Origin: a bacterium | GTDB taxonomy: Bacteria > Myxococcota_A > UBA9160 > UBA6930 | Assembly (NCBI GenBank): GCA_024228115.1 | Contig: JAAETT010000353.1 | Coordinates: forward strand, 1-64,000 | Length of the DNA: 64,000 nucleotides | Direction of reading: 5' to 3' | Shown: positions 48,951-63,889 of the stretch, in pieces | Layout of the letters: each line of letters begins with the position of its first letter | Position numbering within the stretch: the first letter of the stretch is position 1 | Notes under the pieces: model-generated | The model's input: the letters and a program-made list of their open reading frames with translations, nothing else | The model's database searches: none | Told to the model about the DNA's origin: nothing | Program-made: the position numbers and the translations under genes

Positions 48951-50441
48951 ATGTCCGCCTCGACCGCACCGCTCGAAGCCCCTGCCCTCCGACCCTCCGA
49001 AGTACTCGGCATCTGGATCAAGCATCTGACGGCTCTCTATATCCCGGGGCTCAGTCTGGTCTTCGTACTCACCGGGCCGCATCCGTGGTGGGTCGCGATC
49101 CTCTTCATGCTGCCGATGGTCTGGGCCCATCACGCGGATTGCACCGCCCGGGTCGAACGCCGGCAGCCGGCCCAGGGCCTTCCCGCCTGGCCCTTCGATG
49201 CACTCGTCTACATCCTGGTTGGGCTCCAGCTCTGGATCGTCGGTGGGCTCGTCGTTCTCTTCGCGGGGCAACAGGGCGTGTTCTCCGTAGACATGGTCAT
49301 GGCCTTTCTCGTCGTCGGCGGCAGCTCCGGCTTCGCGATCATCACCGCCCACGAGCTGATCCATCGCCAGGGCAAGACCGATCGGTTGCTAGGCCGGCTG
49401 CTCCTATCCGTCGTTCTCTGCGAACATTTCTTCACCGAGCATCTGCGCGGCCATCACGTCCGCGTCGGAACCGCGGACGATCCGGCCACCGCGCGATTCG
49501 GCGAGCGCTACGAGCCTTTCTTCCGGCGCACGGTTCCGGCCCAGTTCCGAAGCGCCTGGAACATCGAAAAGAAGCGACTCGGCGATGAGCAGATGAAGCT
49601 CTTCGACCGACGCCAGTTCGGCAATCGTGTCCTGCAGGGTGTGATCTTCGAATGGACACTCGCGTTCGCGATTCTCGGATTCTTTGGAGTCGCCGCATTC
49701 CTGGCATTCCTCGCTCAGGCGTTCATGGCCGTGCGTCTCCTCGAGGCCGTGAACTACTTCGAGCATTGGGGCTTGCAACGCCAGGGCAAGCGCGTAGAGC
49801 CGATCGATTCCTGGGACACCCACGGCTGGTTCACCTACTACGGCCTGGTCGGGCTCTCCCGCCATGCGGATCACCACGCCCATCCGATCCGGCCGTACCA
49901 GAAGCTGCGGGTCTGGGAAGAAGCGCCCACCCTTCCCTACGGCTATGTGGGAGCGGTCGACCAGGTGCAGGGGAACAACGAGGAGTTCATGAAGACGGCG
50001 GCCCTGGAACTCGGCCGACGGCGTCTCGGCCCGTTCCTGCCGGATGGCGAGGACAGCGCTGCGCTCTCCCCCGAAGCCTCTCTCGCGCGGCTCGAGGAAG
50101 CAAAGCATTTGGAGAACCCGCCCGCTTCGGAAACGCCGGCCCTGCCAATCCTCTGGCTCCGGAACCTTTCACGAACGCTAGGCCGAACCGGAACTCGCGT
50201 CGCCGGGCTGGCGTTGGTCTTGCTTCTGACCACCGTTGCGGTCCATTGGGAATCAGGAAGCACCGAAACCGGCATCCTCGCACGGCTGGCCCTTCATACG
50301 TGGATCTTCGCTTCGGTCGCGGCACTGATCTTCGTCGGACACAATCTCAAGCTCCGCACCGAGCACGAATCGTTCGCCTGGAGCGCGGCCATGGGGCTCC
50401 TGGTCGTGTTGGGCGCGGCGTCGGACTGGCTGGTCGGCTGA
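48951..50441 (+). CDS. alkB: Alkane 1-monooxygenase AlkB with C-terminal extension
   Basis: A 496-residue integral-membrane di-iron hydroxylase that oxidises the terminal carbon of n-alkanes or related chains. Six helices hold the histidine boxes HELIH (134-138), EHLRGHH (163-169), NYFEHWG (268-274) and LSRHADHHAH (302-311), all intact and in the AlkB order. AlkB normally ends soon after the last box near LPYGY (about 330); here about 160 residues follow, with three further helices (LALVLLLTTVAVHW; LHTWIFASVAALIFVG; GLLVVLGAASDWL). No fused rubredoxin is visible, so electrons must come from a separate gene. Start ATG 48951 is directly after the intergenic stretch. The family assignment is certain; the role of the extension is unknown. 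Confidence 0.88.
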   Translation: MSASTAPLEAPALRPSEVLGIWIKHLTALYIPGLSLVFVLTGPHPWWVAILFMLPMVWAHHADCTARVERRQPAQGLPAWPFDALVYILVGLQLWIVGGLVVLFAGQQGVFSVDMVMAFLVVGGSSGFAIITAHELIHRQGKTDRLLGRLLLSVVLCEHFFTEHLRGHHVRVGTADDPATARFGERYEPFFRRTVPAQFRSAWNIEKKRLGDEQMKLFDRRQFGNRVLQGVIFEWTLAFAILGFFGVAAFLAFLAQAFMAVRLLEAVNYFEHWGLQRQGKRVEPIDSWDTHGWFTYYGLVGLSRHADHHAHPIRPYQKLRVWEEAPTLPYGYVGAVDQVQGNNEEFMKTAALELGRRRLGPFLPDGEDSAALSPEASLARLEEAKHLENPPASETPALPILWLRNLSRTLGRTGTRVAGLALVLLLTTVAVHWESGSTETGILARLALHTWIFASVAALIFVGHNLKLRTEHESFAWSAAMGLLVVLGAASDWLVG

Positions 50442-50496: not shown

Positions 50497-53244
50497 CTAG
50501 AAATCGTCCTGCTTCAGGAGCTTCACGAATGCGTCCTCCGGAACCGGGTCACTGAACAGATATCCCTGCGCATAGTCGCAACCGAACTCCCGCAAGAAGC
50601 TGAACTGTGCCTCGGTCTCGACTCCCTCGGCAATCACCTCCATCCCCAGCCCGTGTGCCATGGCGATGCAGGCTCGGGTAATGGTGGCCGCCTGCTCGTT
50701 ATCGGGCAGCCCTCGAATGAAGGACATGTCGATCTTCAAGACGTCGAGCGGGAACCGCTGGAGGTAGCCCAGGCTCGAGTAACCAGTTCCGAAATCGTCG
50801 ACGGCCAGCCGGATGCCGAGACGACGAAGCCGGTCGAGATTCTCCGTGACGTCCCCGTCCATCAGCGACCGTTCGGTGAGTTCGAAGCTCAGACATTCGG
50901 GATGCAATGACACCGGGCCAAGCGCGCTCAGCACCTGGGCCCTGAGCCCCGGATCCTGGACCTGGCGCGCGCTCAAGTTGACGGCGATTCGCGGCGCATC
51001 CAGCTGCTGGGACTTCCAGGCTGCGATGTCACGGCAGGCCTGAGCCATCACCCAGGCGCCGATTCCAACCTCGAGCCCATTCTCCTCTGCAACGCCGATG
51101 AAGGCCTCTGGCCCGACGAGGCCGTGCCCAGGCCGCTGCCAGCGCACGAGAGCCTCGGCACTCGAGATGCTCCGGGTCTCCACGTCGATGACAGGCTGGT
51201 AGAAGACACGGAACTCCTGCTGGTCGATCGCTTCCCGAAGCGCCTCGATCAATTCCATACGTTCTCGCGCTCGTTCGTTCATCTCCGAAGTGAAGAGATG
51301 AATGGCGCCACCGCCAGTCTGCCTTGCCGCATTCAAGGCGGCATCGCTTCCACTGATCAGGGCTTCCACGGTCCTCGCATCGTCTGGAGCGACTGCAACC
51401 CCGGTGCTTGCCGAGAGTTGCAGCGATCGGCCGTCGATCTCGACGGGCACATCCAGCCGCCTGGTCCAGGCCTCGGCCCGATTCACGGCGGCGGCCTTTC
51501 CGCTGAATTCCTCGACGATGATCCCGAATTCGTTTCCAGCGATGCGTGCAACGCAACCCTCACCGAACTCTTCCGCAAGCCGGGTCGCCGCGACCTGAAG
51601 CAGCTGATCTCCCGTGCTGTGCCCCAGGGTCTCGTTGATGTTCTGGACGTCGTCGAGGCCGGTAATGAAGACCGCGAGCGGGATCGACCCCTCTTCCGAC
51701 CGGCTCAACGCCTGGCGGAGACGCTCCTTGAAGAGCGCGCGATTGGGCAGACCCGTCAGCGCATCGTAGTAGGTCAGAAACCGGTTGCTCTCGATCGTAC
51801 GCAGATTCCCGAGGGCCACCGATGCGCGGGCAACGATCTGCTGCGCCGAAGCGAGCGCCGACAATCCGCCTGGGTCCCGTTCGAAACGCAGCAGCGCGAA
51901 CCCGGCCGGCTGTTGGTTCGCAAAGAGCGGCAACCACGCGAACACCTGAGCCGCAGGGTTGCGGTCGATCCCAGGGAAGCGAGTGGACTCGGGGAGCATC
52001 TCGGCTTCCGGGTGCTCGGCCAGGAAGGCACGCCATTCCGTGGCCCCGTACAACTCGCTCGTCTCCAGGTTCCCGTCGTTCCCCACGCTGGCTAGAGCCA
52101 GGGATTCCGCGCCTTCGCGATCGATCCCGACAAATCCATCCACGGCCGAGGTAAGCGCCATCAGGTGCTCCGCCAGATGACCCGCGATGGATGCCTCATC
52201 GGCCGCTGCGATCAGATGGCGGTCGAATTCCAGGGTTTCCTCCTGGGCCTTGAAGTGTTGATCCAGGGCCCCGGCCATGAAGTTGAAGGAATGCGCCAAC
52301 TCCCCGAATTCGTTGTTTCCGGAAGTGGACGCCCGAGCCGAGAAGTTGCCGGCGGCGACCTCGCGCGTGCCGACCACGAGCGCATGAAGGGGCGCCAGAC
52401 GTCGGCGGATCTGCTGGAGGTTCACGAGCAGCACGAGCAGAAAGGCAAGCCCGACTGCTAGCGCAAAGAGGGCGCGGAACTCGGCGAGGGGAGCGTGGAT
52501 CGCTGCCACCGGCTCCAGGAGAACGACCAACCAGGGCTCGCTGGCGAATTGCGCGTTGAGGAAGAGAGACCAGTATTGACCGCGCAGGTCTTCGCCGCCG
52601 TTGGCGACTTCGACAGGCCCGGAAGTCGAATCGTAGGAGGCCAGCGCCGGCAACGTCAGACTCTCGGAACAACCGATCAATCGCGCGCCGGGCGCTGCCA
52701 GACAGAACTGCCCATCGGGAGGCAAGGTGTTGCGCGCGGCATGGAGGAGATGGTCCGGCTGCACCGCACCCACGAAGGGGAGAGTTCCCTCCCCTGCCCG
52801 GACAGCCAGGAAGATGCCAGCCTCGTTGGTGACAAGGCCTGCTCGGTCTGGGGCGAGCCCGGCAAGCGTTTCGAGTGCAGCACCAGAGCCGGCGACGTCT
52901 CCTCGAATCCACCGAACACTGCCATCGCGTCGGAACAGGCCGATCGCGAGGAAGCGCCCGTTGATCGAGGCGAGATCGGGAGGCGATCCATCGGCGATGA
53001 CCCGTAGCTCCGTTTCCAGGGCCGTCAGCCGCCCCAGCACTGCCATTCCTGTCGCACGGCTCGCCTGGCGCAGCCGTTGCTCGCTCTGATCCTCGAGCTG
53101 GTTCGTGACGGCCTGGAGAACCATGACTGAAACGATCCCGAGCGGAATGAGGGTTCCGGCGATGAAGAGCAGCAGGAACTGGCTGGCCAACTGGCGGCCA
53201 CCCGTCTGGAGGGGAGATTTCGCATCTCGGGAAGGAGAACTCAC
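50497..53244 (-). CDS. Membrane-bound EAL phosphodiesterase with degenerate GGDEF
   Basis: A protein of about 915 residues: membrane helix (20-42), periplasmic sensor domain (about 45-260), second helix, HAMP (about 285-340, RRRLAPLHALVVGTREVAAG), GAF-like domain (about 350-500), GGDEF and EAL. The GGDEF signature reads AGNEF, so cyclase activity is unlikely. The EAL domain keeps AEALVRW, the NLSARQ segment, FELTERSLM, DDFGTGYSSLGYLQRFPLDV and EGVET, so it should hydrolyse c-di-GMP. GTG 53244, with GGAGG four bases upstream, was chosen; the frame is open further upstream but shows no domain. It may control the PilZ proteins nearby. Confidence 0.85.
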   Translation of the reverse strand: MSSPSRDAKSPLQTGGRQLASQFLLLFIAGTLIPLGIVSVMVLQAVTNQLEDQSEQRLRQASRATGMAVLGRLTALETELRVIADGSPPDLASINGRFLAIGLFRRDGSVRWIRGDVAGSGAALETLAGLAPDRAGLVTNEAGIFLAVRAGEGTLPFVGAVQPDHLLHAARNTLPPDGQFCLAAPGARLIGCSESLTLPALASYDSTSGPVEVANGGEDLRGQYWSLFLNAQFASEPWLVVLLEPVAAIHAPLAEFRALFALAVGLAFLLVLLVNLQQIRRRLAPLHALVVGTREVAAGNFSARASTSGNNEFGELAHSFNFMAGALDQHFKAQEETLEFDRHLIAAADEASIAGHLAEHLMALTSAVDGFVGIDREGAESLALASVGNDGNLETSELYGATEWRAFLAEHPEAEMLPESTRFPGIDRNPAAQVFAWLPLFANQQPAGFALLRFERDPGGLSALASAQQIVARASVALGNLRTIESNRFLTYYDALTGLPNRALFKERLRQALSRSEEGSIPLAVFITGLDDVQNINETLGHSTGDQLLQVAATRLAEEFGEGCVARIAGNEFGIIVEEFSGKAAAVNRAEAWTRRLDVPVEIDGRSLQLSASTGVAVAPDDARTVEALISGSDAALNAARQTGGGAIHLFTSEMNERARERMELIEALREAIDQQEFRVFYQPVIDVETRSISSAEALVRWQRPGHGLVGPEAFIGVAEENGLEVGIGAWVMAQACRDIAAWKSQQLDAPRIAVNLSARQVQDPGLRAQVLSALGPVSLHPECLSFELTERSLMDGDVTENLDRLRRLGIRLAVDDFGTGYSSLGYLQRFPLDVLKIDMSFIRGLPDNEQAATITRACIAMAHGLGMEVIAEGVETEAQFSFLREFGCDYAQGYLFSDPVPEDAFVKLLKQDDF

Positions 53245-53349
53245 GGAGCCTCCATCGGCGTGCGGTCTACAACCGCTTAGCCCCACGCTGCCCCCGGGAA
53301 ACCCGCGTCGCTGGTAAATCGGGGCTGGCGTTCTGCCGATGACGAGGGT

Positions 53350-53778
53350 GTGTCGAGACGTGGAATCCGAGCAAAGACCGATGAGAAAGCGAAGCTCTGG
53401 GCGGTCGTCCTGCTGGTCGCCGTGGCCCTGACGGCGTCCGTGGGCGCGTTCCGGAAGAGCCAGGAGCCCCCTCCGGTGGTGCCGGAAGCATTGCAGGGGC
53501 ATTGGACGACCGCGGAGTCCAGCCATTCTGATCGATACATCGAACTGGGCCCGACGACCATCACGCTTGGCACGGGTGGGCTGCTGGGCACGATCAGCGC
53601 CGTCCGGCAGGTGAAGAGGCTGGCTTCCGGCCGTCCCGGTTACGTCCGCTACGAAGTCGAAATCCTGGACGACGAGGGAGCCATCGCCTCGACTGTGGAG
53701 CTCGACTTCCGAGACGGAATCGTACCAACCCTTGCGTTGCCTAACGTACCAGGATATTGGCGGCGCGAACGGACCTGA
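53350..53778 (+). CDS. Small single-helix membrane protein upstream of pseudopilin
   Basis: A 142-residue protein with a basic N-terminus, one membrane helix (AKLWAVVLLVAVALTASVGA, about 14-33) and an exported beta-rich domain (LQGHWTTAESSHSDRYIELG near 50; RYEVEILDDEGAIASTVELD near 100). The start GTG 53350 is uncertain. Its stop codon overlaps the start of the pseudopilin gene (TGATG), so the two are coupled and likely belong to one pilus or secretion-related system. I recognise no family. Confidence 0.6.
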   Translation: MSRRGIRAKTDEKAKLWAVVLLVAVALTASVGAFRKSQEPPPVVPEALQGHWTTAESSHSDRYIELGPTTITLGTGGLLGTISAVRQVKRLASGRPGYVRYEVEILDDEGAIASTVELDFRDGIVPTLALPNVPGYWRRERT

Positions 53779-55286: not shown

Positions 55287-58200
55287 CTACCAGGTATCGA
55301 TGCAGGGGCGTTTCTTGCCCGTTCGGGGCACGGGCGGCGGAGCCGAGCGGAGGGCGCGCAGCACCCAGGTTCGGGATTCAGCCGGGTCGATGACATCGTC
55401 GATCTCGAAGGTCGATGCGGTATTGAGGGCTTTCCCGTGCTGGTACATGCGGGCGACCATTTCGTCGTAGAGCGCTCGGCGTTTTTCCGGATCCTCTTCG
55501 GCGGCCAGCTCCTTGCGAAAGCCGAGCTTCACAGCGCCTTCGAGGCCCATCCCTCCGAACTCGCCCGTCGGCCAGGCCACGGTGAAGACACCGGCCTTGA
55601 AGCTGCCACCTGCCATCGCCTGGGCGCCCAGGCCATAGCCCTTGCGCAGGACGATCGTGAAGAAGGGCACGCTCACGCTGGCAGCCGTCACGAACATGCG
55701 GCTCGCATGGCGAACCAGGGCCGTCTTCTCTGCCTCGGGCCCCACCATGATGCCGGGCGTATCGCATAAGAACAGGATCGGCAGATCGAATCCGTCACAG
55801 AGCTGCATGAAGCGCGCGGCCTTGTCGGCGCCGTCGCTATCGATGGCACCTGCCAGGTGGGTCGGATTGTTGGCAATGATGCCGAGCGGGCGACCTTCCA
55901 TGCGCGCAAGCGCCGTGACCATCCCGGCGCCGAAGCCCCGGCGAAGCTCGAGCACCGAACCCGTGTCGGCCACGCTCTCGATGACCTTTCGCACATCGTA
56001 GATGCGCAGCCGGTTCTCCGGAATGGCGCTACGCAGCAGGCGCTGGTCGACACACTCCCATTCGGCCAGCGGGCCCTGGAAATACGAGAGGTACTGCTTG
56101 GCCACCTGCACGGCCTCGGCTTCGTCGGCGACCGGGATGTCGACCACGCCGCTCGGCACATGGTCGGACATCGGGCCCACTTCCTCGGGCCGGAACACAC
56201 CGAGGCCGCCGCCCTCGATCATTGCAGGGCCTCCCATGCCGATGTTCGAGCCCTCGGTCGCAATCACGACATCGCAGCAGCCCAGGAGCGCGGCGTTGCC
56301 CGCAAAACAACGGCCTGATGTGATGCCCACCAGCGGTACGAGGCCCGACAACCGCGCAATGAAGTGGAAGGCCATGCAATCGAGGCCCGCGACGCCAACG
56401 CCGTCCGTATCGCCGGGCCGGCCGCCGCCGCCTTCGGTCAGGAAGACCAGCGGGATCCGCAGGTTCTCGGCCAGCTCGAACATGCGGTCCTTCTTGCGAT
56501 GGTTCTGCAGGCCCTGGGTGCCGGCCAGCACCGTGTAGTCGTAGGAGAGGGCCGCGCAGCGCGAGGCCTGCTCCCCGAAGTGATCGCCGTTCACGCTACC
56601 GATGCCCGCCACCAGCCCGTCTGCCGGGGTGCGACGAATCAGATCATCGAGGCTGCGCCGGCGACGCTGCGCAGCGATGACGACCGCGCCGTACTCGATG
56701 AAGGAGCCCGGATCGCAGAGATCCTCCACATTCTCTCGCGCGGTTCGCTGGCCGGTCTTGCGTCGACGTGCCACCGCCTCCGGACGCGCCGGGTCGAGGC
56801 CCAATGCGTGGCGCTCCTGGATCTCAGCCAGATCCGGACGCACGTGATCCAGATCGATGGTTTCCTGTTCCTCTCCGGCCTCGCGATCGACTTCAGCTTC
56901 CTCGAGGAACAGCAGCGGATGGCCCTCCAGGACCGTGTCACCCGGAGCTACCGCCACGGCCCGTACGAACCCGCTGCGGTCGGCCGCGATGACGTGCTCC
57001 ATCTTCATCGCCTCCATCACCAGCAGGGGTTGGTCGCGGGCGATCGCATCACCGACGCCGATCGCCAGGCTGACGATCGTGCCCTGGAGAGGCGCGGGGA
57101 CGGGTTCGGTTCCGGGGGGGCCAACGGCCGGCGGCAAGGGCGGGGCGGGGCCGGCGCTCGTTTGGCTCGCGGCGACAGGCACCCCCTTGCCGTGCTCCAG
57201 CACCGCCAGGGGGTCGTTGCTTTCGAGACGTATACCCGCGTGCCCTGCATCCGCCGTTTGCTGTGAAGACACGACGGCAGGCATCGCCGCCAACAGCTCC
57301 GGAATCTTGGCTTCGACGAAACCGGTCGTCACACGGTTCGCACGGACGTCCGGATGGGCCAACAGGCTTCGGAGGAGCGGCAGATTGGTTCGCGTGCCTT
57401 CGATCCGGAACTCGCCCAACCCGCGAAGCGCTCTTGCAACGACCGCCTCGAAATCTCCCGAAGGCGAATGGGCAACGAGCTTTGCAAGCAGCGAATCGAA
57501 GCGTGGGTTGGTTGCGTAGCCGGCGTAGCCATAGCCATCCACCCGGATGCCCGGGCCCGCGGGCGGCTCATAGACCGCCAGGACACCACCCGACGGCCGC
57601 ACGCTGCCATCTTCCGCCAGCGTTTCCAGATTGATCCGCGCCTGGAGCGCGAAACCGCGGGGCGCAGGCACCTCTTCCTGTCGAAGTCTCAAGTCTCCCA
57701 GGGTTGCGCCGCCGGCGATGCGAAGCTGGGCGGCCACGAGATCCACACCGATCACCTCTTCGGTGACCGTGTGTTCCACCTGCAGCCTGGCGTTCGCTTC
57801 GATGAACGCCCAGCTTCCCTCGGAACCGTCCTCCGCATCCAGAAGGTACTCGAAGGTGCCGAGACTGCGGTAGCCGACCTCCCGGGCCATGCGAACGGCG
57901 GCCTCCGCAAGCTGGACGCGCAGTTCCTCCGAAAGCGTCGGGCTCGGAGCGATCTCGATCAGCTTCTGGTGCCGCCGTTGCAGGCTGCACTCGCGTTCGC
58001 CGAGTTGCGCGATGCCGCCCTGGCCATCCCCGATGATCTGGATCTCGATATGGCGGGCGGCCGGTACCAACCGTTCAACGTAGAGGGCATCGTTGCCGAA
58101 TGCCGCGCCGGCCTCTGAGGCGCAGCGCGCCCAGGCTGCCTCCAGCGCGTCCGAGCTCTCCGCGGGCCGCATGCCCCGGCCGCCGCCGCCGGCGAGCGCC

Positions 58201-58667
58201 TTGATCATGACCTTCTCACCCTCAGCGAGCGAAGCCAGGAAGGCTTGAGCCTCCTCCAGGCGGGTCGCTCCACCGGTTCCGGCCAGGACGGGAAGGCCAC
58301 AACGCTCGGCCAGCGCGCGCGCTGTCGTTTTGTCTCCGAGTGCCCGCAAGGTCTCCGACCGCGGGCCGACCCAGGTGATGCCCGCTTCTTCACAGGCCTG
58401 CGCCAGCTCGAAACTCTCGCTCAGCAACCCATAGCCAGGGTGGAGTGCGTCGCAGCCGGCCTCCTGTGCCGCGGCGACCAGGGCTTCGGCATCCAGATAG
58501 GCCGCGGGCCCGGCACCCGAAAGCATGTGCGTTTCATCGGCCAGACGCAGATGGAGGCTCGCCGCGTCATCCTGTGAAGCCGTGGCAACCGTCGCGATTC
58601 CCAGGTCTCCGGCAGCACGAAGCACGCGCACGGCGACTTCGCCTCGATTCGCCACCAACAGCTTCAT
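55287..58667 (-). CDS. Fused acyl-CoA carboxylase: biotin carboxylase, BCCP, carboxyltransferase
   Basis: A 1126-residue single-chain acyl-CoA carboxylase. Biotin carboxylase (about 1-440) starts MKLLVANRGEVAVRVLRAAG with the ATP-grasp loop KALAGGGGRGMR near 155; BCCP carries EAMKMEH at about 552-558 (biotinyl Lys555); the carboxyltransferase domain (about 600-1126) has the crotonase-like halves. It converts a short acyl-CoA, probably acetyl- or propionyl-CoA, to the malonyl/methylmalonyl form. These functions are normally split over two or three subunits, so the fusion is notable. It follows the selenoprotein gene by 12 bp and is cotranscribed with it. Propionyl-CoA from the steroid pathway is a possible substrate. 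Confidence 0.9.
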   Translation of the reverse strand: MKLLVANRGEVAVRVLRAAGDLGIATVATASQDDAASLHLRLADETHMLSGAGPAAYLDAEALVAAAQEAGCDALHPGYGLLSESFELAQACEEAGITWVGPRSETLRALGDKTTARALAERCGLPVLAGTGGATRLEEAQAFLASLAEGEKVMIKALAGGGGRGMRPAESSDALEAAWARCASEAGAAFGNDALYVERLVPAARHIEIQIIGDGQGGIAQLGERECSLQRRHQKLIEIAPSPTLSEELRVQLAEAAVRMAREVGYRSLGTFEYLLDAEDGSEGSWAFIEANARLQVEHTVTEEVIGVDLVAAQLRIAGGATLGDLRLRQEEVPAPRGFALQARINLETLAEDGSVRPSGGVLAVYEPPAGPGIRVDGYGYAGYATNPRFDSLLAKLVAHSPSGDFEAVVARALRGLGEFRIEGTRTNLPLLRSLLAHPDVRANRVTTGFVEAKIPELLAAMPAVVSSQQTADAGHAGIRLESNDPLAVLEHGKGVPVAASQTSAGPAPPLPPAVGPPGTEPVPAPLQGTIVSLAIGVGDAIARDQPLLVMEAMKMEHVIAADRSGFVRAVAVAPGDTVLEGHPLLFLEEAEVDREAGEEQETIDLDHVRPDLAEIQERHALGLDPARPEAVARRRKTGQRTARENVEDLCDPGSFIEYGAVVIAAQRRRRSLDDLIRRTPADGLVAGIGSVNGDHFGEQASRCAALSYDYTVLAGTQGLQNHRKKDRMFELAENLRIPLVFLTEGGGGRPGDTDGVGVAGLDCMAFHFIARLSGLVPLVGITSGRCFAGNAALLGCCDVVIATEGSNIGMGGPAMIEGGGLGVFRPEEVGPMSDHVPSGVVDIPVADEAEAVQVAKQYLSYFQGPLAEWECVDQRLLRSAIPENRLRIYDVRKVIESVADTGSVLELRRGFGAGMVTALARMEGRPLGIIANNPTHLAGAIDSDGADKAARFMQLCDGFDLPILFLCDTPGIMVGPEAEKTALVRHASRMFVTAASVSVPFFTIVLRKGYGLGAQAMAGGSFKAGVFTVAWPTGEFGGMGLEGAVKLGFRKELAAEEDPEKRRALYDEMVARMYQHGKALNTASTFEIDDVIDPAESRTWVLRALRSAPPPVPRTGKKRPCIDTW

Positions 58668-58679
58668 GATGCTAGGCCG

Positions 58680-59549
58680 TCACGCTTTGGCGTCACGCCG
58701 CTTGTTCATCAATGCGATGATGGGCGAAGGCTCGGCAGGATGCCATTTCGTCTGCTTGGGCTCCTCGTGCCAGACGAAGGGCAGATGCTCCACGACGCCA
58801 GGTTCCTGAGCCGTCTCGAAGAGGTCGAGAGCCGCGCGCAGAACCTTCCCCTGGGTCTCGCGATCGCCTACATCACCGAAGGGCCGCCCGAACGGATGCT
58901 CGATCGCCGCGACACGGGGCATGCCGATGGCCCGCTGAAACGGCCACAACATGTTCAATGTGACGGTCGGGATGCCCCGGGCCTCGATCTCTCGTGCGAC
59001 CAGCCCCACGGACCGGCAACAATCGGGTCAGACCGGCGTGAGAAGCGCAAGGTCGACCTCCTCGCTGCGCATGGCCTCCGCAATCTCCGGCGCGCTCTTC
59101 TCGACCAGATTGCTGGAATCGCTGCCCTGGAAGCCCATGATCGAATAGTGGCTCTCGGCACTCGCACCCACGCTGCCCTCGTCTACGAGTTCGCGGAGCC
59201 GATCGACCGGTAGCGCCACATTCAAATCACGCTCGACGTAGCCCGTATCGATGTGCAGGTGGTTCGCCTCGATCTCTGTGGCCGTCGCGTCGGATCGCAG
59301 CCGCCGCCAACTCGAATCGCCCCGGGTCGGATGCTGGCGCTCGTATTCCATGTCGAACGGCTCGTCGCCCTTCATCGAGAGGCCCGACGTCGAGAGAAGC
59401 GCGACTTTCGATTCGGCAAGCGGCCGGGTCACCGGCGTCCATGGGATCGGCGGGTGGTTCGGCTGCTCCGGAATCCCGCGGGAGAGGATCTTCTCGAGGA
59501 AGGAACCGGTAAAACGCCAGGGATCGACTTCGCGTCGGGAATCGCTCAT
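58680..59549 (-). CDS. GrdB/PrdB-like selenoprotein, TGA-encoded selenocysteine
   Basis: A protein of 289 residues read through an in-frame TGA (59030-59028) as selenocysteine at residue 174. The N-terminal part reads ESKVALLSTSGLSMKGDEPF, and the active region is LLTPV-U-PDCCRSVGLVA; then HPFGRPFGD near 208 corresponds to HPLGNP of GrdB. This is the selenoprotein family of glycine/betaine/proline reductase B subunits, with a UxxCC redox motif. No other grd or prd gene is near, so the substrate is unknown. A normal caller would report two fragments, 59028-59549 and 58680-59009. It is cotranscribed with the fused carboxylase. Confidence 0.87.
58999..59017 (-). promoter_or_regulatory. Candidate bacterial SECIS hairpin
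   Basis: Ten bases after the TGA the message forms GCCGGUC-CGUGG-GGCUGGU, a 7-bp stem with G-U pairs and a five-base loop containing GU. Its loop starts 18 bases past the UGA, within the spacing needed for SelB-guided insertion. The stem is short and lies within the coding sequence, as bacterial SECIS elements do. Not tested. Confidence 0.5.
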
Positions 59550-59620: not shown

Positions 59621-60067
59621 CTACGTGAGGATGGAGTAGGCGGAGCTCAAAGCCATCCAGATCGTGACCATGAATCCGATCGCCCAGACCGCCGTGCGGT
59701 GGGGCATGAGCCCCTTCATGTAGGCGACGAGATGCAGGATGCGGCCGATCGGGAAGCCCGCGAAGCAGATCCACAACCCGAGGGTGCTCGGCTGGGTCAG
59801 GGCGTAGATGAACCCCACCAGCACGAAGGGCAATCCCGCTTCCAGATCGTTCAGATGAACCCGACGCGCGCGCTCGACCTCCTCATCCGTCGCGGTCTGG
59901 GGCTGGAGCTTCTGCAGCTCGTAGTCCTCGGGCGAGCTGAACACGTTCTTGCGGATGCGGATGGAGCTGACGAGTACGCCTGTAGCGAGCGTCTTGAGTG
60001 CGACCACGATGGACGAAAGCGCCCAGGCCTTGATGGCGGCGTTCGAGAGAAGTTCTTCCAAGAGCAT
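59621..60067 (-). CDS. MAPEG family membrane protein
   Basis: A 148-residue protein with four membrane helices of the MAPEG superfamily (membrane-associated eicosanoid/glutathione proteins). The segments ATDEEVERARRVHLNDLEAG near 58-77 (the conserved ERxxRxHxND-like loop that binds glutathione in eukaryotic members) and RILHLVAYMKGLMPHRTAVW near 108 are visible. A glutathione-dependent role is possible but bacterial members are poorly known. It lies on the same strand as, and 71 bp upstream of, the selenoprotein gene. Confidence 0.85.
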   Translation of the reverse strand: MLLEELLSNAAIKAWALSSIVVALKTLATGVLVSSIRIRKNVFSSPEDYELQKLQPQTATDEEVERARRVHLNDLEAGLPFVLVGFIYALTQPSTLGLWICFAGFPIGRILHLVAYMKGLMPHRTAVWAIGFMVTIWMALSSAYSILT

Positions 60068-60877: not shown

Positions 60878-62593
60878 TCAGGCCGTCGGCGCGGCCTGCG
60901 GCCCGCGTACGAGCCCGCCCGGCAATGTTCCGGTCGGCTCGCCGTCCTCGTAGATGATCTCCCCGTTCTTGATGGTGTAACGGTAGCCGTCGACCTTCTG
61001 GATCAGGCGGCGTCCCTCAGCGGGCAGGTCGTAGACCATTTCCGGCGCGTGCAGATGCAAGGCGTCGAAGTCGATCAGGTTCACGTCTGCGCGCATGCCG
61101 GGCGCGACAGTTCCGCGATCTTCCATCCCGTAGAACGCGGCGGTGCGACGCGTCTGCCGTTCCACCACCACCTCCAGCGGAATCCGTTCACCACGCTCCC
61201 GGTCGCGCACCCAATGGGTGAGAAGGAAGCTGGGCATGCTGGCATCACAGATCAAACCGCAATGGGCACCGCCGTCCGAGAGCCCGAATACGGAACTCTC
61301 GTGGAGCATCATCTGCCGGATCGGCTCCAGATCGCCGTTCGCGTAACCGAGCAGCGGCATGTAGACGAAGCCACCCTCGAGCATGAGGTCGTAGGCCACT
61401 TCGTCGGGGCTGCACCCTTTGCGGTTTGCGATGGCCGCCAGGCTCTGGTCCGGTGCCGGCTCGTACTCCGGCGGGTCGCCCAGGGGAAACATCATGTGCC
61501 AGGCGCCTGCGACCAGGGCGGCAACCCCGGGCAGGCCCGCCAGATTCGGCCGTTCCGCCAGGATGGCTTCGCGCACGGCCGGCTCTGCCAGCTTCTGAAG
61601 CCTCTCCTCTCGAGGCAGCGCGCCGTAGGGCGCAAATGCCTTCCGCAGCATGAAGGGCTGAAAGGTGCTCTCGAAGCCGAACAGCATGCCCGCCGGCCGT
61701 TGCGCCACCTGGGGTGTCAGGTGCCCGCCTTCGGCCCGATCCTCATCGACCACCGCCATGAGTCGTTTCCACTGGTCCGGATCGGCCGGGCTCTGCAGAC
61801 ACGCAAAGGTCACCGGGCGGCCCGTCTCCTTGCCAAGCTTGCGCATCCAGCGCAGCTCGTCGCCTTCGGGCGCGAGATCACTCGCCACCTCGAACACCCC
61901 GTGCCCCACTTCACCTAACATGCGTCCGATGCCGAGCACCTCTTCGTCCTCGGCCGTGGTGCCAGGTACCAGCTCGCCGTCCTTGGCCCGATGCAAGAGC
62001 GTGCGCGAGGTCGAGAAGCCGAGAGCTCCGGCCTCGAGGCCCTCCTTCACGATCGCCGCCATCTCAGAGATCTCCCCTGGGGTCGCTTTCTCGTTCTTCG
62101 CGCCGCGCTCACCCATGACATAGGCCCGCACGGCGCCATGGGGAACCTGGGTCGCCACGTCGATTGCGCGGGGAATCTTCTCCACAGCGTCCAGGTACTC
62201 GGGAAAGCTCTCCCACGCCCAGTCGATCCCTTCGGCCAGCGCGGTGCCCGGAATGTCTTCGACTCCCTCCATCAACTGAATCAGGAAATCCTGTTGGCCC
62301 GGGCGGACCGGTGCGAACCCGACGCCACAATTCCCCATCACGAGGGTCGTCACGCCATTCCAGCCGGAGGGCGTGAGATAGGGATCCCAGGTCACCTGGC
62401 CGTCGTAGTGGGTATGGATGTCGACCCAGCCTGGTGTGACGAGCAAGCCCTTGGCATCGATCTCGCGCTTGGCCGGGCCGACGTCGCTGCCGACCGCGAC
62501 GATGCGATCGCCTTGGATCGCCACGTCGGCCTGGCGCGCCTTGGCGCCCGTTCCGTCTACCACGGTGCCGCCGCGAATCACGAGATCATGCAT
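60878..62593 (-). CDS. Amidohydrolase, N-acyl-D-amino-acid deacylase family
   Basis: A 571-residue metal-dependent hydrolase of the amidohydrolase superfamily (D-aminoacylase/dihydroorotase-like group). The metal motif is [14 protein letters not shown] with His60 and His62, then NCGVGFAP near 94, and the late Asp lies in [15 protein letters not shown]. The N-terminal beta domain begins [20 protein letters not shown], typical of the group. Members cleave N-acyl-D-amino acids or cyclic amides; the true substrate is unknown. It is divergent from the epoxide hydrolase gene, with about 160 bp between. Confidence 0.87.
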
Positions 62594-62752
62594 CAGACGC
62601 TCCTCTGCCTTCTGGATTGGCCGAGGCTATCACAGCAGGAAGTCGCGCCTCAGAGGTCAATCGGCCGCTTCGATCCGAGCCATCTGCGTCACGATCCAGG
62701 GCTAGCAGGACCCCCTCCGGGCGAGGCATGCTCCCGCCCGGAGGAACCCGCC

Positions 62753-63889
62753 ATGTCCGACATCCAGCCCTTCCAAATTTCCGCCAGTGACGAAGAACTC
62801 GAGGATCTCCGCCGTCGCCTCCAGAACACGCGTTGGCCCGAGGCCGAGACTCCCGATGATTGGTCCCAGGGCATCCCTCTGGCCTACACCCAGGAAGTCT
62901 GCACGTACTGGGCGGAAAAATACGACTGGCGTGCCCGCGAGGCGCGACTGAACCGCTTCGAGCAATTCAAGACCGGGATCGACGGTCTGGGCATCCATTT
63001 CGTTCATGTGCGCTCACCTCATGAGAACGCGCTTCCGCTCGTGATCACCCATGGATGGCCTGGTTCGATCGTAGAGTTCCAGAAGATCATCGAGCCGCTG
63101 ACGAATCCGACCGCGCATGGCGGGGATGCCGCCGACGCTTTCCATGTCGTCTGCCCCTCGCTCCCGGGCTTTGGCTTTTCGGACAAGCCGACCGGGCCGG
63201 GCTGGGGCGTTCCGAAAATTGCAGCAGCCTGGGCCAAACTGATGCCGAAGCTTGGCTACCCGAGCTATGTCGCCCAGGGCGGCGACTGGGGCGCGATGGT
63301 CACGACGGCGATCGGCCTGCAGGATCCGGAGAACTGCCGCGGCATCCACCTGAACATGCCAATCGTGCCTCCGGACCCGGAGACCATGGCCGAGCTCACC
63401 GAACAGGAGAAGAGCGCGCTCGCCGGGATGCAGCACTACCAGGACAAGGACTCGGGCTACTCGAAGCAGCAGAGCACGCGTCCTCAGACCCTGGGCTACG
63501 GACTCACGGATTCTCCCGCCGGCCAGGCCGCATGGATACTCGAGAAGTTCTGGTCATGGACGGATTGCGATGGCCACCCGGAGAACGCTCTCACGCGGGA
63601 CGAGATGCTCGACAATGTGATGCTCTATTGGCTCCCGGCGACGGCCGCATCCTCCGGTCGCCTCTACTGGGAGAGCTTCACCCAGGTCAGTATGGATCCC
63701 GTTTCCATTCCCGTCGGCTGCACGATCTTCCCGAAAGAGATCTTCCGCTGCTCACGCCGCTGGGCCGAGAAACGCTTCCCGAATCTCATCCACTGGAGCG
63801 AGCCCGAACGCGGAGGCCACTTCGCCGCCTTCGAACAACCCGCAACATTCATCGACGAGATACGAACCTGCTTCCGCTCCCTCCGCTAA
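62753..63889 (+). CDS. Epoxide hydrolase
   Basis: A 378-residue alpha/beta-hydrolase of the microsomal-type epoxide hydrolase family, with the family N-terminal domain (ELEDLRRRLQNTRWPEA near 15-31 and YWAEKYDWRAREARLNRF near 52). The oxyanion motif is HGWPGS (100-105), the nucleophile Asp178 lies in QGGDWGAMV, and the His in GGHFAAFEQP near 350. Such enzymes add water to epoxides. ATG 62753 with GAGGAAC upstream is preferred; the long upstream frame is antisense to the amidohydrolase. The substrate is unknown; no epoxidase is adjacent. Confidence 0.88.
   Translation: MSDIQPFQISASDEELEDLRRRLQNTRWPEAETPDDWSQGIPLAYTQEVCTYWAEKYDWRAREARLNRFEQFKTGIDGLGIHFVHVRSPHENALPLVITHGWPGSIVEFQKIIEPLTNPTAHGGDAADAFHVVCPSLPGFGFSDKPTGPGWGVPKIAAAWAKLMPKLGYPSYVAQGGDWGAMVTTAIGLQDPENCRGIHLNMPIVPPDPETMAELTEQEKSALAGMQHYQDKDSGYSKQQSTRPQTLGYGLTDSPAGQAAWILEKFWSWTDCDGHPENALTRDEMLDNVMLYWLPATAASSGRLYWESFTQVSMDPVSIPVGCTIFPKEIFRCSRRWAEKRFPNLIHWSEPERGGHFAAFEQPATFIDEIRTCFRSLR

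Follow-up and report, generated by a model that had tools for sequence, protein, structure and literature searches.

A probable selenoprotein of the GrdB/PrdB superfamily, apparently without a pyruvoyl partner, in a genome of Myxococcota

Background

D-proline reductase and glycine reductase require a pyruvoyl-type subunit, PrdA or GrdE, according to PMC10838667 and to a 1999 proline reductase paper as it is cited in PMC13188914. Selenoproteins labelled PrdB have also been counted in marine bacteria. A survey of the Sargasso Sea in 2005 found 42 PrdB selenoprotein genes, which placed PrdB third in abundance among the known selenoprotein families (PMC1088965), the GOS study of 2008 listed 235 members (PMC2398784), and a proline-reductase selenoprotein is listed for Anaeromyxobacter (PMC1794560). 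The GOS paper neither mentions PrdA nor discusses proteins lacking this partner (PMC2398784). Alphaproteobacterial proteins of Haematobacter and Roseomonas, annotated as "glycine/sarcosine/betaine reductase selenoprotein B family protein", carry a C-P-x-C motif and have no PrdA or GrdE in the annotated surrounding stretch. The fluoroacetate reductase FarB/FarE of Cloacibacillus offers a possible precedent, by analogy, for pyruvoyl-free chemistry in a GrdB homologue: FarB is such a homologue turned to another small electrophile and leaving group, and FarE is devoid of the pyruvoyl-forming cysteines (PMC10838667). In our searches of the literature, whose coverage left out most subscription journals, we found no description of a separate partnerless branch with a U-P-x-C motif (U, selenocysteine), nor a function for a partnerless PrdB-like protein.

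Here we analyze a gene of this superfamily in a stretch of 64,000 nucleotides from a bacterium of the Myxococcota (the window). A first-pass annotation of the sequence had proposed a selenoprotein hidden behind an in-frame TGA, and regarded a copy next to an acyl-CoA carboxylase and without grdA, grdE, or prd partners as unexpected, GrdB and PrdB selenoproteins being known from amino-acid-reducing anaerobes. In view of the marine and Anaeromyxobacter cases, the idea that such a protein is unexpected, or restricted to these anaerobes, finds no support. Since "PrdB" selenoproteins of marine bacteria have been known since 2005, the window gene adds to a known kind.

Results

A single reading frame across an in-frame TGA

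The gene is described by the following features:

58680..59549, minus strand: the selenoprotein gene itself (PrdB/GrdB superfamily), coding for 289 aa from the ATG at 59549 to the terminal TGA at 58680-58682 (from homology, TGA conservation, dN/dS, and an AlphaFold2 model)
59028..59030, minus strand: in-frame TGA, very probably read as selenocysteine, residue 174 (TGA kept in relatives, Cys in alphaproteobacterial homologues, sel genes in the genome)
59016..59030, minus strand: putative redox motif U-P-D-C-C (U174, C177, C178), with U174, P175, and C177 invariant in 22 aligned proteins

The minus strand from 59549 to 58680 forms a single frame of 289 codons whose sole internal stop is the TGA at 59030-59028 (codon 174), in the context LLTPV-TGA-PDCCRSVGLVA and followed by 115 sense codons. 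The frame and its HPFGRP and U-P-D-C-C motifs are as the first-pass annotation had described them, and so is the splitting of the gene by standard gene calling, where the ORF list gives 59028..59549 (173 aa) and 58680..59009 (109 aa). The accompanying argument, that a chance stop would not be followed by matching homology, stands, but the 115 further codons add nothing to it. The window (65% GC) contains 29 TGA codons that are preceded by 173 or more open codons and followed by 115 or more, so how far the frame stays open is uninformative and was dropped as proof of recoding. In contrast, both halves belong to the same family. The TIGR04483 (PrdB) model matches the joined protein at 2.5e-46 in an alignment continuous over the TGA, and the halves searched singly match successive parts of the model (13-145 for the first, 151-235 for the second).

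We found 24 related loci in genome contigs whose records are titled as Myxococcota/Deltaproteobacteria, Gammaproteobacteria and other Proteobacteria, Thermodesulfovibrionales, and one Sumerlaeota bin. A TGA is present at codon 174 in all the 23 loci that span this codon, which come from independent assemblies, and in 37/37 of the distinct orthologue-like flanks (at least 45% identity). The homologues share the downstream frame, instead of having a true stop followed by an unrelated one, and those without the TGA have a Cys at the equivalent of position 174. Between the window gene and its relative in locus L018, dN is 0.068 and dS 0.88 upstream of the TGA, and 0.054 and 0.68 downstream. Values of dN far below dS on either side indicate purifying selection, and in most pairs the conservation behind the TGA equals or exceeds that before it. 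The AlphaFold2 model of the joined chain has a pLDDT of 91.7 and a pTM of 0.91.

A conserved hairpin downstream of the UGA

In bacterial SECIS elements, the apical loop is small, has a G among its first positions, and is placed some 16-37 nt from the UGA. The first-pass annotation had suggested looking for such an element, and the region downstream of the UGA folds as follows:

58995..59021, minus strand: bSECIS-like hairpin, with an inner 8-bp stem (59017-59010 / 59006-58999), a GUG loop (59009-59007), and an outer stem of 3 bp (59021-59019 / 58997-58995)

The GUG loop starts 18 nt after the UGA, and the hairpin fits the traits above. For comparison, we built a null in which the protein was kept and synonymous codons were redrawn from the codon usage of the family (300 draws). 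On average, the 37 sequences form 10.2 of the 11 pairs, where the null gives 7.4 (sd 0.18, maximum 7.9), an excess that does not translate into a probability given that the sequences are kin. The mean folding energy of the region is -15.8 kcal/mol, against -12.1 kcal/mol in the null. Codon choice is almost frozen at +4 to +10 (Arg CGG in 31/32, Gly GGA in 33/37, Leu CTG in 35/37) and looser outside, and in locus L031 a G-C pair of the stem is swapped for A-U. A scan of the hairpin against Rfam matched no model, which is not decisive. Judged against this null, the hairpin is retained far beyond what the coding of the protein requires.

Selenium machinery of the genome

The genome containing the window has 6.41 Mb in 700 contigs and is 97% complete. 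The sel genes that the first-pass annotation had proposed to look for are all there: SelA (1.7e-152), SelB (1.6e-84), selC as a tRNA-Sec above the Rfam threshold with a UCA anticodon, and two SelD genes above the cut-off, at G000:C360:14138-15061 (L045) and G000:C99:7755-8669 (L046). One member of this SelD pair has its own in-frame TGA and the other lies inside an open frame of 750 aa, possibly a fusion.

Taken together, the unbroken TIGR04483 alignment, the TGA in 23/23 loci, the purifying selection, the conserved stem-loop, and the presence of selA, selB, selC, and selD argue that the UGA at 59030-59028 very probably encodes selenocysteine.

Family, motif, and relatives

The assignment to the GrdB/PrdB superfamily, made earlier from motifs, is supported by the profile searches. 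PF07355 (GRDB) matches with 37 bits (cut-off 22; 3.3e-09), and the match corresponds to the C-terminal, selenocysteine-bearing half of GrdB. TIGR04483 aligns across the TGA with 158 bits, and its equivalog cut-off (300) is missed.

Over around 230 residues, the window protein is 33-37% identical to PrdB of Terrisporobacter, Peptoclostridium, and Ligilactobacillus, with selenocysteine at the same place, a Cys at +3, and the H and D that are conserved in the HGGYD stretch. It differs from these proteins by U-P-D-C-C in place of U-G-T-C-H, by HLHID in place of the HGGYD of PrdB and GrdB, by its lack of PrdA and sub-cut-off score, and by extra residues at both ends (around 30 at the C-terminus). 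In comparison with GrdB, GrdF, and GrdH (PF07355), it lacks the N-terminal half of GrdB and reads U-P-D-C-C instead of U-G-T-C-T-R-C. The Haematobacter and Roseomonas proteins, which have Cys for selenocysteine, fall in the same broad clade as paralogues of the window protein but group with one of these (L043), not with the PDCC group. The marine and Anaeromyxobacter "PrdB" sets share the family label, the UxxC motif, and marine or deltaproteobacterial hosts with the window clade, and very probably include it.

Partner-linked proteins read U/C-G-T-C and partnerless ones U/C-P-x-C. In a phylogenetic tree with some long branches and an arbitrary root, the U-P-x-C proteins are placed apart from the partner-linked GTC proteins with a support of 98/87 (96/91 with fewer rows). 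Their clade includes paralogues without the Cys at +3 (U-P-L-D), which means that a resolving Cys is not universal. The alignment of 22 proteins has many invariant residues outside the selenocysteine loop. No solved relatives were found by sequence, and a Foldseek search of the model against solved structures found none alike (best E 0.012) and no thioredoxin-fold match.

The genome has two further PrdB-like genes with a TGA. The one at G000:C326:18177-18938 (L042, L118) reads U-P-L-D-H-Q, without Cys at +3, and U-P-L-D recurs at L111, which belongs to another genus. This gene immediately follows one for a methyltransferase and one that weakly matches L-2-amino-thiazoline-4-carboxylic acid hydrolase (ATC-hydrolase). 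The other, at G000:C591:405-1079 (L043, L119), reads U-P-V-C-H-Q and is preceded, in the same orientation, by genes for a Rieske-domain protein and an acyl-CoA ligase. The Cys-bearing proteins of Roseomonas and Haematobacter belong to its clade.

Absence of the pyruvoyl subunit

The profile PF09338, which covers both PrdA and GrdE, has no match in the window's genome, and the same search is positive in three Bacillota control records. PrdA gave no hit across loci L017-L040. The earlier claim that grdA, grdE, and prd partners are missing is therefore supported for grdE and prdA; for grdA, PF04723 had no match in the genome in a search run without a positive control. Within the class, PrdB-like proteins occur in 69 of the 91 genomes, with up to 7 in each, and PF09338 in two, being absent from the other 89. 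In these two genomes (loci L092 in G040 and L093 in G033), GrdE adjoins a canonical U-G-T-C GrdB. The two loci look like real glycine-type reductases. In two very large genomes of the same phylum (L116 in G371, L117 in G369), the best match is a Cys-form PrdB (CGTCHRS) with PrdA directly adjacent, apparently a genuine selenium-free D-proline reductase. Hence, among the cases examined, the partner accompanies proteins of the GTC type, and those with U/C-P-x-C lack it. From these distributions, the window protein is predicted not to be a subunit of D-proline or glycine reductase. The suggestion that it acts on a different substrate is probable in view of the missing grdE/prdA partner.

Gene neighborhood and host

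The gene is flanked on the same strand by:

55287..58667, minus strand: fused biotin carboxylase / BCCP / carboxyltransferase (acyl-CoA carboxylase), 1126 aa, downstream after a gap of 12 bp (Pfam)
59621..60067, minus strand: MAPEG family protein, 148 aa, upstream with a gap of 71 bp (PF01124, 1.3e-24)

The carboxylase gene is possibly co-transcribed with the selenoprotein gene. The first-pass annotation had treated this adjacency as meaningful, but it deserves little weight, since, of the relatives' loci, just those of the closest two (L017 and L018) have a carboxylase homologue, and operon logic was dropped as a clue to function. A MAPEG gene is also found upstream of the relative in L018. 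Neighbors of the relatives, which are approximate owing to the choice of ORFs in GC-rich DNA, include enoyl-CoA hydratase, VTT, MFS, luciferase-like, PhyH, sulfatase, DUF748, and other proteins with no common theme, and no neighbor family recurs across the relatives' loci.

Elsewhere in the window, we noted a membrane fatty-acid desaturase/hydroxylase family protein (48951-50441, PF00487), a long protein that by eye is of the GGDEF/EAL type (50497-53526), and an epoxide hydrolase (61991-63889, PF06441). The genome encodes homologues of the heme-copper oxidase subunit I (COX1), which makes it likely that the host respires oxygen. The host, a member of the Myxococcota, thus probably breathes oxygen.

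Discussion

The account that we favor, and hold to be fairly probable as a whole, is that of a real selenocysteine protein of the GrdB/PrdB superfamily that would work without a pyruvoyl group, its Sec-174 acting on a small electrophile in a role other than Stickland fermentation. The hairpin just downstream of the UGA would recruit SelB, which would bring Sec-tRNA to the UGA (59030-59028) so that a single protein of 289 aa results, a step strongly supported by the sequence. As no PrdA or GrdE gene was found in the genome, we propose that this protein acts without such a subunit, unlike PrdB or GrdB. Going by family chemistry and by the motif, the selenolate of Sec-174 in the U-P-D-C-C loop would attack the electrophile, as nucleophile or reductant, while conserved residues (H97, D101, D108, and others) hold the substrate. 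Cys177 or Cys178 would resolve the selenium adduct as a selenenylsulfide, which cellular thiols or thioredoxin would reduce. The electrophile would presumably be able to react without a Schiff base to pyruvoyl. With a host that probably respires oxygen, a role in breaking down or detoxifying some small organic compound seems more likely than one in the Stickland fermentation of amino acids. FarB/FarE differs from this scheme, since it comes from an anaerobe and retains a GrdE-type subunit together with the GrdA/GrdC system.

Could the TGA be a genuine stop, in a pseudogene, through a sequencing error, or between two separate proteins? The open frame by its length does not speak against this, but the recurrence of the TGA in every spanning locus, across independent assemblies and several phyla, the selection acting downstream of it, the continuity of the family model, and the conservation of the hairpin make it hardly credible. 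Recoding of the UGA to some other residue, such as Trp by leaky read-through, comes close to negligible given the complete selenocysteine machinery, the bSECIS-like hairpin, and the Cys, not Trp, found in homologues without TGA.

Different considerations apply to function. The protein could be a true subunit B of a D-proline- or glycine-type reductase with its partner encoded elsewhere in the genome: PrdB is its best model match, and a genome 97% complete in 700 contigs may miss the partner gene. This is very improbable, because the TIGR04483 score is little more than half of the cut-off and PF09338 is lacking here and in 89 of the class's 91 genomes, more than gaps in the assemblies could account for. 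Moreover, GrdE in the two exceptions adjoins a canonical GrdB outside the window clade, the true PrdB of the phylum is a GTC protein adjoining PrdA, and the HGGYD motif is replaced by HLHID. A role in general redox chemistry, as a selenocysteine-dependent thiol oxidoreductase or in the defense against peroxides and electrophiles rather than as a reductase of one carbon-heteroatom bond, would agree with the U-x-x-C motif, which thiol redox proteins typically have, with the aerobic setting, and with the MAPEG and a GST among the neighbors at some loci. Yet we consider it rather unlikely, since no thioredoxin fold was matched, the many invariant residues away from the selenocysteine loop suggest a substrate pocket, and the diverged copies, as many as 7 in one genome, seem to reflect specialization for substrates.

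The part worth following is the partnerless branch. We tentatively propose, from motif, tree, and partner distribution, that the U-P-x-C proteins may be a distinct branch of the superfamily that uses selenocysteine for an undescribed, pyruvoyl-free reductive cleavage of carbon-heteroatom bonds in oxygen-respiring bacteria. Standard gene calling cuts such genes in two, which keeps them hidden in annotations. Among marine selenoprotein families, one of the commonest bears the name of a clostridial proline reductase, and in a class so rich in PrdB-like proteins and almost devoid of the pyruvoyl subunit, the name "PrdB" is probably wrong for the U-P-x-C branch, whose substrate thereby becomes a concrete and testable question. 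If our proposal is true, marine counts would have labeled U-P-x-C proteins as "proline reductase PrdB" for twenty years without their having that activity.
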